Source: a virus. From it: 28,703 nt of DNA. Numbering within the stretch: position 1 is the stretch's first letter; the number at the start of each line of letters is the position of its first letter. Positions 16,780 through 19,417 of the stretch are shown piece by piece. The notes under the pieces are model-generated. The model saw only the letters and a program-made list of their open reading frames with translations. It had not been told where the DNA came from and ran no database searches. The stretch covers positions 1 to 28,703 of IMG/VR virus record IMGVR_UViG_3300048105_000167, one strand, 5' to 3'. A program made the position numbers and the translations under genes.

Positions 16780-17625
16780 TTATATCTTTTTTTGCTGCGT
16801 ATAGCCAAGCCATTTTTTAGCTTGATTATAAAATAAATTATTAGGGAATAATGAAGCATCTAAATTGCTAATTTTATGTTTATCGAATAAAGGGTCGCAA
16901 CTATAATGCGCAATGTAATGGCTATCTTTTAATTCATTTATTCCAGGGTAATAACAGTTTTGAATATCTATCATTTTTATTTTATGATTATGACAAGCAA
17001 TATTTAAACCGTACATAGCACACCACCAAGAATGTTGATTCCCTTTTTCTTTTTCAGTTACACTACAAGAATAAATTATAATGTCATCTATAATTCTTTT
17101 AATAGTTTTTACCCTAGCTATAACATTAAATCCTCCATTTATGTACCCCTCTTCATCGTGAGTTAAATATTGATTTATAACCTTTCTATTTATAGATTCA
17201 GGTTTAGAAATATGCATATGCCAGTCTTCATACGTTGCGTCTACTAAAACTACATCATAGTCTAAATGGTCATATACTTTTGGGTATGGTTTTAAATGAA
17301 CTAAGTCGGAGTCAATTATTTCTACAACCTGCTCGTCTTTAAATAAATCAAGCAATTGTTTGGCTGCTATAAATACGTTTATAGGTATATGCCACTGCTT
17401 GTCACTTTTAACGTAGTCATATACAGAGCCCACCATTTTATATGGTAAAGACATATCCCACTCTACATCAAACTTAGAAGCCTCATTAAAGTGATTATAT
17501 CTAATTATGGGTATGTAGGCTTTACTAATAGCCTCTTCTCCATAAACTTCTTTGTGTTGGTATTGAAAAAAAGATATTTGTTTTTCAAAAAAAGGTATAG
17601 CAACAGCAACAGGAATAGTTATCAT
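16780..17625 (-). CDS. Probable DxD glycosyltransferase (hydroxyproline/serine-glycosyltransferase-like)
   Basis: A 281-residue protein with GT-A-type features: an N-terminal strand (IPVAVAIPFF), a HIPINVFIAAKQLLDLF helix, then VVEIIDSDLVHLKPYP (residues 100-115) with a DxD-type metal/sugar-nucleotide motif D105-S-D107. Later come GYINGGFNVI (160-169), a common acceptor-side GT-A motif, and HSWWCAMYGLNIAC (198-211) with a Trp pair. The order helix, IIDSDLVHLKP, NGGFN, W-rich helix recalls eukaryotic hydroxyproline arabinosyltransferases and peptidyl-serine galactosyltransferases, which also use an acidic D/E-x-D. The ATG overlaps the dioxygenase stop (ATGA), so the two enzymes are translationally coupled. 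Hand-counted lines are only 23-37 % G+C, lower than neighbours. Acceptor and sugar are inferred, not seen. Confidence 0.7.
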   Translation of the reverse strand: MITIPVAVAIPFFEKQISFFQYQHKEVYGEEAISKAYIPIIRYNHFNEASKFDVEWDMSLPYKMVGSVYDYVKSDKQWHIPINVFIAAKQLLDLFKDEQVVEIIDSDLVHLKPYPKVYDHLDYDVVLVDATYEDWHMHISKPESINRKVINQYLTHDEEGYINGGFNVIARVKTIKRIIDDIIIYSCSVTEKEKGNQHSWWCAMYGLNIACHNHKIKMIDIQNCYYPGINELKDSHYIAHYSCDPLFDKHKISNLDASLFPNNLFYNQAKKWLGYTQQKKI

Positions 17626-18791
17626 GCAAGCTGATAGTGAACATAAAAGTTCCTAAAGTATGTCCCTTGAAAAGAATCTACCCTTCCGTGAGCACACCTG
17701 GCAGATTCATATAGTATCATCTCTCCGACATTAGCATAAACTTTATTCCAATTACCGTTATGGTCTTGTATGTCTAATGCCCAGTCATCTCCAAACTCTT
17801 TGTGTTGACACCCACACCTTAAATCTTTATCCACTATTATAATTGAAGACACATGATGTGTGGCAACTCTATCGGTATGTGTAGCTAAAGTTGAGCCTCT
17901 TTTGTATGACCTAATGCCATATATAAAAGAAGGAGATATTTGTTGTCTAGCAAAGTCTTCGTGTATAGGTTGAAGTTGAGTGTGTATTAAAGACCTTATA
18001 TATGGAAGGTGGTCGAAAGAAAAAAGTTCTGTGTCGCCTGTAGGAATAAATTGTTCTTTTCCTTGAAATTCTTCTGGTTGAGATTTTTCTTTTAGTAAAG
18101 TGTAAGCGTCTTGAATCAATGCCCAAGTTGCAGGGGGGCATTTTACTACTTTATACCCGTTTGGAGTTAGTTTTGGTAAATCATTAATGTCGTTGTATTC
18201 TTTTGGCTTGTTAAAAAACATGTTTTGGTCTTTAACATTGTCCCAAGAGTTTTCTCTCCACCAAGAAGTAATGATGTATTTCTTTCCTTTTATTATAGGC
18301 ATTCCTTCATGCATGGAATCATTTTGCATCTCTCCATTCACCATGTTTTTCCAACTCAAAGCCATGCCCTCCTTTGGATGTACTATTTTGTTTTGATTGA
18401 CAAAATTTGTACCGCCTCCCTCAAAGTCATCATTGAGATATATCATTAAAGTGTCTGTTCTGTTACCAGAATGCAAGCAATGTTTCTTAATTGCTGGGCC
18501 TGAAAAAAAATCTTGATGTGGTTTAAAATACTGTCCTTCTTCGTAAAGCTGTCCTTGTAAGTGTTCTCCTTTAGCAAGCTCAATACCTAAAAAATCAGCT
18601 ATCTTTTTTTGAAGTTGTTGAACCTTTTCATCTCTATGATTAAGGTTGCAGGTACTAGAGGTTCGGGTATCCGAAATAGTGCTTAATTCTTTTCCTCCTT
18701 CAACTACTGAAGAGGGGGCATGATTCTTGTCAATCATGTCAATAAAATAAGCGCACTCTTCTTTTGTTAAAAAGTTTAGAGTTTCTTTCAT
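17622..18791 (-). CDS. Tandem 2-oxoglutarate/Fe(II) dioxygenase, prolyl 4-hydroxylase-like
   Basis: A 389-residue protein with two complete dioxygenase halves. N-terminal half (about 1-180) is P4H-like: QLYEEGQYFKPHQDFF carries H92-x-D94. H161 is the distal iron ligand, and K171, ten residues later (GKKYIITSWW), is the 2-oxoglutarate anchor, the same H+10=K spacing as collagen P4H. C-terminal half (about 285-389): YKRGSTLATHTDR has H305-x-D307, CAHGR has H368, and R380 in TYFRNFYVHY is the probable 2-oxoglutarate arginine. Both halves appear catalytically intact, which suggests two hydroxylation specificities or an internal cascade. The gene lies between a Pro/Thr-stalk protein and a glycosyltransferase, so proline-rich tail proteins are plausible substrates. 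Nucleotide demethylation is a less likely alternative. Confidence 0.9.
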   Translation of the reverse strand: MKETLNFLTKEECAYFIDMIDKNHAPSSVVEGGKELSTISDTRTSSTCNLNHRDEKVQQLQKKIADFLGIELAKGEHLQGQLYEEGQYFKPHQDFFSGPAIKKHCLHSGNRTDTLMIYLNDDFEGGGTNFVNQNKIVHPKEGMALSWKNMVNGEMQNDSMHEGMPIIKGKKYIITSWWRENSWDNVKDQNMFFNKPKEYNDINDLPKLTPNGYKVVKCPPATWALIQDAYTLLKEKSQPEEFQGKEQFIPTGDTELFSFDHLPYIRSLIHTQLQPIHEDFARQQISPSFIYGIRSYKRGSTLATHTDRVATHHVSSIIIVDKDLRCGCQHKEFGDDWALDIQDHNGNWNKVYANVGEMILYESARCAHGRVDSFQGTYFRNFYVHYQLA

Positions 18792-18826
18792 TAGATTAAA
18801 TTTTTATAAAGATAAATATATTTCAG

Positions 18827-19417
18827 TTAGGAAGCTAAACATTCAGCGCAATCACCGAACTCATCATAAGAACTAAAGTTTCCTGTGTAAGATGTATAAT
18901 AATCTACAGTATAACAAACTCCCGCGTATTTAATTACCATTCCTGTAGAAATATTGCCATCATCTACAACTCTTAAATTAGCTCCTCCTCCAGTACACAA
19001 AAATAAATCATATGAACCAGGTGCTGAAGGAACTGGTGTTGGAGTTGTAGGCACAGGCACAGGCACAGGCACAGGCACGGGCGTAGGAGCTGTAGGAGTA
19101 GGTGTAGGCGCTGTAGGTGCTGGAGTTGGCGCAGCAGGCACGGGTGTGGGAGCAGTTGGAGTCGGAGGACTAGGAGCTGTAGGTGTGGGCGTAGGAACAG
19201 GCGTGGGGGTTGGTGCAGCAGGCACGGGGGTAGGCGTGGGGGTTGGTGCAGCACAAGATTGTCCTGCAAACAAAACTCCAGATATTTGTTCCCTAACTAT
19301 AGTTTGGTCTGAATACCATCCATTAGCAGCAATGTTGGTTAAATCTTGGTCTGTATATACAGTTGTTGCATTAGCAAAACTTGCTGCATCAAAATAATAT
19401 GTTCCTGTCGTTGCCAT
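18827..19417 (-). CDS. Pro/Thr-stalk tail protein with Cys-rich C-terminal module
   Basis: A 196-residue three-part protein. Residues 1-56 form a small beta domain (GTYYFDAASFANATTVYTDQ) that resembles a segment of the 1749 aa neighbour. Residues about 58-134 are almost entirely Pro, Thr, Ala and Val (PTPTPVPAAPTP style), an extended stalk. Residues 135-193 are a module with four cysteines (C141, C168, C190, C193), very similar to the C-terminal modules of the 1749 aa protein. Probably a virion stalk or appendage displayed at the tail. The stalk is the obvious candidate substrate for the prolyl hydroxylase and glycosyltransferase encoded immediately downstream. No signal peptide. The start ATG lies 11 bases after the nozzle gene's stop. 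Confidence 0.8.
   Translation of the reverse strand: MATTGTYYFDAASFANATTVYTDQDLTNIAANGWYSDQTIVREQISGVLFAGQSCAAPTPTPTPVPAAPTPTPVPTPTPTAPSPPTPTAPTPVPAAPTPAPTAPTPTPTAPTPVPVPVPVPVPTTPTPVPSAPGSYDLFLCTGGGANLRVVDDGNISTGMVIKYAGVCYTVDYYTSYTGNFSSYDEFGDCAECLAS
18839..19015 (-). repeat. Cys-module copy A (paralogous repeat)
   Basis: Encodes residues 135-193 of the 196 aa stalk protein: YDLFLCTGGGANLRV, then DDGNISTGMVIKY, then CYTV, ending DCAEC. It pairs closely with copy B at 19615-19809 and more distantly with copy C at 19432-19614. Confidence 0.8.
19016..19246 (-). repeat. Low-complexity Pro/Thr/Ala/Val stalk tract with GGCACA hexamer array
   Basis: A 231-base G-rich (plus strand) low-complexity tract encoding the roughly 77-residue PT-rich stalk. 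Within it, 19050-19079 is four perfect GGCACA units plus GGCACG, encoding a Val-Pro repeat. Units of 6 bases can expand or contract in frame, so stalk length may vary among relatives. Confidence 0.9.

Follow-up and report, generated by a model that had tools for sequence, protein, structure and literature searches.

A candidate prolyl hydroxylation and glycosylation cassette for tail stalks in a phage known from metagenomes

Why would a phage carry genes for an oxygenase and a glycosyltransferase (GT) in line with the gene for a proline-rich tail protein? The question is raised by the IMG/VR virus record IMGVR_UViG_3300048105_000167, a bacterial virus known from metagenomes, whose 28.7 kb (28,703 nucleotides) were analysed in full and are called the window here. 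A sequence-only reading had pointed to three consecutive minus-strand genes for a stalk protein, an oxygenase and a GT, and had proposed that the two enzymes hydroxylate and glycosylate stalks of the virion; the coordinates, strands and lengths of the genes (196, 389 and 281 aa) were confirmed. Gene content, family assignments, gene order and co-occurrence in relatives together support the interpretation of a hydroxyproline (Hyp)-glycosylated virion stalk. We assign a probability of about 68% to a virion-protein modification cassette that glycosylates tail-tip stalks step by step, on Hyp and possibly in part on Thr. The features that carry this reading are as follows.

18827..19417, minus strand: stalk protein, 196 aa, with a short N-terminal domain, a 77-aa P/T/A/V stalk and a C-terminal Cys-containing domain
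19019..19249, minus strand: Pro-rich stalk, residues 57-133 of that protein, 35 Pro in 77
17622..18791, minus strand: tandem 2-oxoglutarate (2OG)-Fe(II) oxygenase, 389 aa, probable protein prolyl hydroxylase
18207..18791, minus strand: oxygenase domain 1 (N2OG), prolyl 4-hydroxylase (P4H) type, H92xD94...H161...K171, R111
17625..18206, minus strand: oxygenase domain 2 (C2OG), second 2OG fold, from an AlphaFold2 (AF2) model, Foldseek and conservation over relatives
17622..17625, minus strand: ATGA overlap by which the GT gene is coupled to the oxygenase gene; most close cassettes overlap by 4 nt at the same place
16780..17625, minus strand: GT, 281 aa, GT-A fold, D105xD107, hydroxyproline O-arabinosyltransferase (HPAT)-like

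Stalk and enzyme families

The stalk, read earlier as about 77 residues of Pro/Thr sequence, is exactly that long and consists of 35 P, 20 T, 11 A, 9 V and 2 S. Pro is encoded by a mixture of codons (CCT 20, CCA 7, CCC 7, CCG 1), and its density peaks at 19 per 40 residues; the runner-up among all stop-to-stop frames in the window has 10.

Domain 1 of the oxygenase matches PF13640 at 55.2 bits against a cut-off of 27. The expected HxD...H...K motif is present as the iron triad H92, D94 and H161 with the 2OG Lys, K171, ten residues on, and R111 aligns with the arginine of 2jig. A phmmer search of the PDB placed P4Hs closest among solved proteins (5iax/3itq/5hv0 at 1e-22 and 2jig/3gze at 1e-16), and nearly all of the top 8 PDB matches are P4Hs by name, with a best value of 9.6e-23. 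Domain 2 has H305xD307 and H368-x-R370, which are nearly or fully invariant in 21 relatives, and its AF2 model has a pLDDT of 94. The best Foldseek matches of this model are Pseudomonas putida P4H, Dictyostelium PHD, human PHD2 and the ribosomal prolyl hydroxylases Tpa1/OGFOD1 (2e-7 to 1e-5), at a sequence identity of just 8-16%; these matches speak for the fold class rather than for a given substrate. The 389-aa enzyme is a probable protein prolyl hydroxylase.

Searched alone, the window GT had no Pfam match, nothing significant in PHROGs and nothing in the PDB by sequence. Since it gave no useful match by itself, the family signal was obtained through its relatives, and 8 of 18 close GT relatives matched the Pfam HPAT family PF23452, whose curated cut-off is 23.9 bits. 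The scoring orthologues are 54-64% identical to the window GT and include L015 (63-64% identical, 28.8 bits) and L023 (28.5 bits), both over the cut-off; more distant viral GTs scored 25.2 bits (L057), 33.0 bits (L094) and 46.5 bits (L159, positions 7-249 of 307). Run against the window, the HPAT profile found exactly the GT gene, in the same region, at 20.4 bits (E 3e-6, one genome), under the cut-off, and it gave a match in 0/14 control genomes. HPAT1-3 are the founding members of CAZy family GT95, a relative of GT96, the family of extensin serine galactosyltransferases (PMC8012813).

Modelling of the GT gave a confident GT-A fold (AF2 pLDDT 86, pTM 0.87; Foldseek GT6, E 5e-8), and the DSD motif at D105 and D107, pointed out in the sequence-only reading, is D-x-D in every aligned relative. 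The structure comparison went no further than a GT-A/GT6-like fold, with no HPAT-named structure in the 50 best PDB fold matches. The enzyme starts at its catalytic domain, with a strand at residues 2-8, and lacks the N-terminal type II Golgi membrane anchor of plant members, as would be expected of a cytosolic prokaryotic enzyme; for this reason we call it HPAT-like rather than a GT95 arabinosyltransferase. Its grouping with the hydroxyproline arabinosyltransferase family is supported by the orthologues that pass the PF23452 cut-off. Arabinose was dropped as a candidate for the transferred sugar, as nothing in the analysis identifies the donor.

Conservation of the cassette in relatives

The cassette was followed in a first sample of 26 viral contigs with close GT relatives and afterwards in larger sets. 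In most loci with room on the contig, the oxygenase and GT genes share a 4-nt overlap (8 nt in L033) or the oxygenase lies a few genes upstream, and the Pro-rich gene immediately precedes the oxygenase gene or is one gene away from it. When 50 non-identical HPAT loci with adequate flank were scored for partners within 4 kb, 38 had both a 2OG hydroxylase and a Pro-rich gene, 5 had the hydroxylase only, 1 had the Pro-rich gene only and 6 had neither. One locus scored as hydroxylase only, L163, has a PT-containing gene upstream that escaped the pattern, and three of the six loci with neither partner are bacterial proteins of a JmjC-fused kind.

The survey bears out the proposed co-occurrence of hydroxylase, GT and Pro-rich virion gene in several phage backgrounds: crAss-like phages, a siphophage-like group (L016-L026), tape-measure-bearing contigs (L028-L031) and L160-L164. 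The cassette also occurs in a different gene order in L167-L168, where L167 has a run of ~145 residues of PS/PV repeats immediately beside the HPAT gene. The 2OG domain common to the crAss-like and siphophage-like cassettes is domain 2, and the siphophage-like group has domain 2 only; the reading of a 194-aa siphophage gene as a lone P4H was ruled out by domain-wise BLAST, which shows that the gene encodes the second 2OG domain. At L163 (7383-8840), a GDSL-lipase-like domain (a sub-threshold Pfam match) is fused to HPAT and followed by a lone P4H domain.

Probable tail-tip setting and the muzzle control set

The cassette lies in a minus-strand tail module that runs from 319-aa and 305-aa proteins through the 1749-aa protein, stalk gene, oxygenase and GT to the 587-aa protein. 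The two flanking proteins are described below.

19429..24678, minus strand: virion structural (muzzle-type) protein, 1749 aa, phrog_14478, C-terminal Pro linker, possible further substrate
14980..16743, minus strand: virion protein, 587 aa, short Pro linker, muzzle C-terminal domain, PF25729, phrog_38031, possible further substrate

Both had been read as tail-type proteins, and profile matches agree: the 1749-aa protein matches the virion structural family phrog_14478 at E 2e-237 in PHROGs, and the 587-aa protein has the crassvirus muzzle C-terminal domain PF25729 (E 9e-19, 68.2 bits against a cut-off of 27). The Pro/Thr linkers attributed to them are present but short: the 1749-aa protein has about TPIPTPTPVAPTPSPTF, the 587-aa protein PAPVPSPTP. 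Over 62 aa, the C-terminal Cys-containing domain of the stalk protein shares 56% identity with a portion of the 1749-aa protein. Through the 1749-aa protein, the nearest isolates are Cellulophaga and Flavobacterium phages (32% identity) and the environmental genome MW202828 is at 45% identity; the homologue in Cellulophaga phage phi18:3 is annotated as structural from tandem mass spectrometry. In phi18:3 and MW202828 the cassette is absent and the corresponding genes are separated by zero or one small gene. Two window genes, 14980-16743 and 19429-24678, apparently make up a split crAss-type muzzle and enclose the modification cassette; stalk-less relatives instead have a short muzzle-C gene of ~265 aa. 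In crAss001 the muzzle forms the distal tail end (PMC10172136), so by analogy the window stalks are probably located at the tail tip.

As a control, stalk and hydroxylase were scored over 72 muzzle C-terminal domain loci, each with at least 4 kb upstream. Both were present in 36 loci and neither in 33, with the stalk alone in 3 and the hydroxylase alone in 0. Of the three stalk-alone exceptions, L064 and L075 combine a Thr-rich stalk with GT60 plus a large gene resembling a GT, and L115 has a single trivial run. This co-occurrence is strong as a description and weak as statistics: we do not claim the Fisher p of 4e-17 for stalk versus hydroxylase as significance, because the tree leaves 2-3 independent pairs. 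On the same tree HPAT changes 9 times in a nearly constant hydroxylase background, which marks the glycosyl part as exchangeable.

Variant cassettes and fusions

The slot held by HPAT in the window is taken in crAss-like relatives by GT60 (PF11397, E 7e-16 to 5e-76), and further genes found there are of GT32-type, O-FucT-like, carbamoyltransferase, sugar 4,6-dehydratase and radical SAM kinds, a list that reads like glycan elaboration. Between the GT and muzzle genes of L015 (8813-12697) lie genes for a GT-like protein, a sulfotransferase-looking protein (by eye), APS kinase, a sugar dehydratase and a PIG-L deacetylase, which suggests sulfated or amino-sugar glycans on that phage. L053 (7456-8364) has a radical SAM/SPASM enzyme between hydroxylase and GT60, and L068 (5703-9552) has a protein O-fucosyltransferase-like gene, a carbamoyltransferase and a further PhyH-like 2OG gene (a weak match). 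The hydroxylase-free arrangement of L064 (5302-8816) and L075 is possibly a mucin-type (Thr) version of the slot.

Seven HPAT loci were also found in bacterial metagenome-assembled genomes (MAGs) with a wider alignment, and none with the narrow alignment. In gammaproteobacterial MAGs, HPAT is fused to a Cupin_8/JmjC-type (2OG hydroxylase-like) domain in L145 (7971-9920) and L146 (7872-9911), both of which were domain-scanned, and, judged by length and synteny, in L147 (7980); such a fusion is possibly a hydroxylate-and-glycosylate enzyme. In Planctomycetaceae MAGs, the N-acetylglucosamine (GlcNAc) transferase family GT60 (PF11397) is fused to HPAT in L148 (7025-8812) and L149 (3405-5795). The L149 fusion additionally has an FkbM methyltransferase domain, and L148 encodes a protein with ~80 aa of PTPTPT about 4 kb from its fusion. 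We lean, with somewhat better than even confidence, towards a widespread and modular phage system for Hyp O-glycosylation, in which a near-constant tandem prolyl hydroxylase and a Pro-rich virion stalk would be combined with interchangeable HPAT, GT60 or other modules; some bacterial MAGs contain related fusions of HPAT.

Alternative explanations

The GT might instead sugar Thr or Ser of the stalk in a mucin-like or SGT1-like manner, with hydroxylation only setting a polyproline-II conformation or recognition. In favour are the 20 Thr of the window stalk, the kinship of GT95 with GT96/SGT1 (PMC8012813) and the need of the plant Ser-galactosyltransferase SGT1 for hydroxylated neighbours (PMC5371791); L064 and L075 pair a Thr-rich stalk with GT60 and have no hydroxylase, and GT60 initiates Ser/Thr-rich mucin-type glycans in protists (PMC8724618). 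Set against this, long stalks of Thr/Ser-free (VP)n or (AP)n repeats, with runs of 52 aa in L005, 35 in L078 and 27 in L013, accompany an HPAT or hydroxylase cassette, and the nearest Pfam family is named after Hyp transfer. Because all of these Thr/Ser-free runs adjoin such a cassette, the data favour Pro as the modified residue, with L064 and L075 as a tiny hydroxylase-free comparison group, and we consider the Thr/Ser version unlikely. It is also conceivable that both enzymes act elsewhere, on a host protein, a lipid, a capsule sugar or another phage protein, and that their genes adjoin stalk genes because tail-tip loci would accept cargo genes. In L033-L036 the enzymes lie away from any PT stalk, a top fold match, P. 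putida P4H, was solved with EF-Tu (4iw3), and cyanophage 2OG oxygenases have been given other roles such as DNA repair or 2OG drawdown (PMC3037559). A substrate elsewhere fits poorly with the presence of the hydroxylase in 0/33 stalk-free muzzle loci, with the Pro-rich gene adjoining in several unrelated backgrounds and with the conserved 4-nt coupling to the GT; we find it improbable and give it little weight. Finally, the stalk could be an ordinary low-complexity linker beside unrelated auxiliary genes, as PT linkers are common in environmental phage proteins. Recurrence in unrelated phages, co-absence, and the match of both enzymes' families to Hyp chemistry make such a coincidence very improbable.

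Several observations weigh against Hyp glycosylation of the stalk. The window GT itself scores under the PF23452 cut-off (20.4 vs 23.9 bits), and a tblastn search of 50,697 phage records returned no GT relative, so no isolate carrying the GT is available. The stalk needs just 3 changes on the muzzle tree, leaving an association that is not significant after phylogeny; the association on the HPAT tree is likewise reduced to few evolutionary events, and the distant viral HPATs L188 and L190 have neither partner nearby. The sequence-only reading would have been undermined by relatives that keep both enzymes where no Pro-rich tail gene exists, and the T4-like loci L033-L036 go part of the way: P4H, HPAT and GT60 stand in a row (around 6809-9661) near a ribonucleotide-reductase-like gene, and no PT stalk or repeat was found in this group when a 122-kb contig was searched. 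The densest Pro segment there is a short PKIPNPIPNIPNP stretch (a PKIPNPIPN repeat) in a 255-aa protein far off. These phages have either a different substrate, a stalk outside the contig or another job for the enzymes.

Proposed mechanism

For the preferred reading, Hyp-linked glycosylation of tail-tip stalks, we infer which reactions take place, how the sugar is linked, where on the virion the stalk sits and what the phage gains. The tandem 2OG oxygenase would hydroxylate prolines in the X-Pro repeats of the stalk, and probably also those in the linkers of both flanking tail-tip proteins. The HPAT-type GT would then add the first sugar onto hydroxyproline, in the host cytoplasm during phage protein synthesis. 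Where relatives have additional or different transferases, such as GT60, or enzymes that modify sugars, these may extend or vary the glycan. The predicted product is a stiff, extended, sugar-coated stalk on the distal end of the tail.

Comparison with known systems

No precedent for phage Hyp glycosylation was found in the open-access literature; as far as that search reached, the chemistry of Hyp-O-glycosylation is known and the phage setting is new. Viral P4Hs are among the abundant auxiliary genes of Baltic Sea viruses, and their use to the virus has been called cryptic (PMC9301287). For a set of these enzymes, the present cassettes suggest both a specific candidate substrate, encoded by the Pro-rich virion gene next to them, and a purpose, to make Hyp to which sugars can be attached. 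If the reading is correct, Hyp-O-glycosylation would not be restricted to eukaryotes, and the phages would have the first system for Hyp-linked glycoproteins beyond eukaryotes and the viruses that infect them. It would further imply extensin- or mucin-like coats on phage tail tips, with sugars that differ between phages and add a new layer to phage-host and phage-environment interaction; HPATs of prokaryotes would also be relevant to how glycosylation of the plant cell wall arose.

Among viruses, mycobacteriophage Che8 and its relatives also decorate their own virion proteins with phage GTs (Freeman et al. 2023, as cited in PMC11256854 and PMC12619734); the available parts of these accounts concern capsid and tail-tube glycans and mention no hydroxylase or Pro-rich stalk. 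The chlorovirus PBCV-1 encodes a P4H, with reported evidence of 4-hydroxyproline in viral proteins (Eriksson 1999, cited in PMC9301287). Unlike the window phage, PBCV-1 is a virus of algae. We know of no HPAT partner for its P4H and of no operon with a tail stalk.

The protist Skp1 pathway resembles the proposed one in its order and location, as a cytosolic P4H hydroxylates the protein before a GT60 GlcNAc-transferase places a sugar on Hyp, and GT60 (PF11397) occurs in the phage relatives. Enzymes of this pathway are often fused in protists; mucin-type glycans there are started by GT60, a family with kinship to the transferase that initiates glycosylation of Skp1 hydroxyproline (PMC8724618). 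Skp1 itself is a ubiquitin-ligase subunit modified in oxygen sensing, whereas the phage system would act on repeated sites of a virion protein, and the window carries HPAT rather than GT60. A close parallel is the extensin-type Hyp O-glycosylation of plants and green algae (P4H with HPAT of GT95; SGT1 of GT96), which likewise combines a prolyl hydroxylase with an HPAT-family GT-A transferase on Pro-rich repeats and in which hydroxylation precedes the sugar, as proposed for the phage. The phage version differs in having no N-terminal Golgi anchor on its GT, in its tandem 2OG oxygenase, in stalks of X-Pro repeats where plants have Ser-Hyp4, and in placing the enzyme genes in line with that of their presumed substrate.

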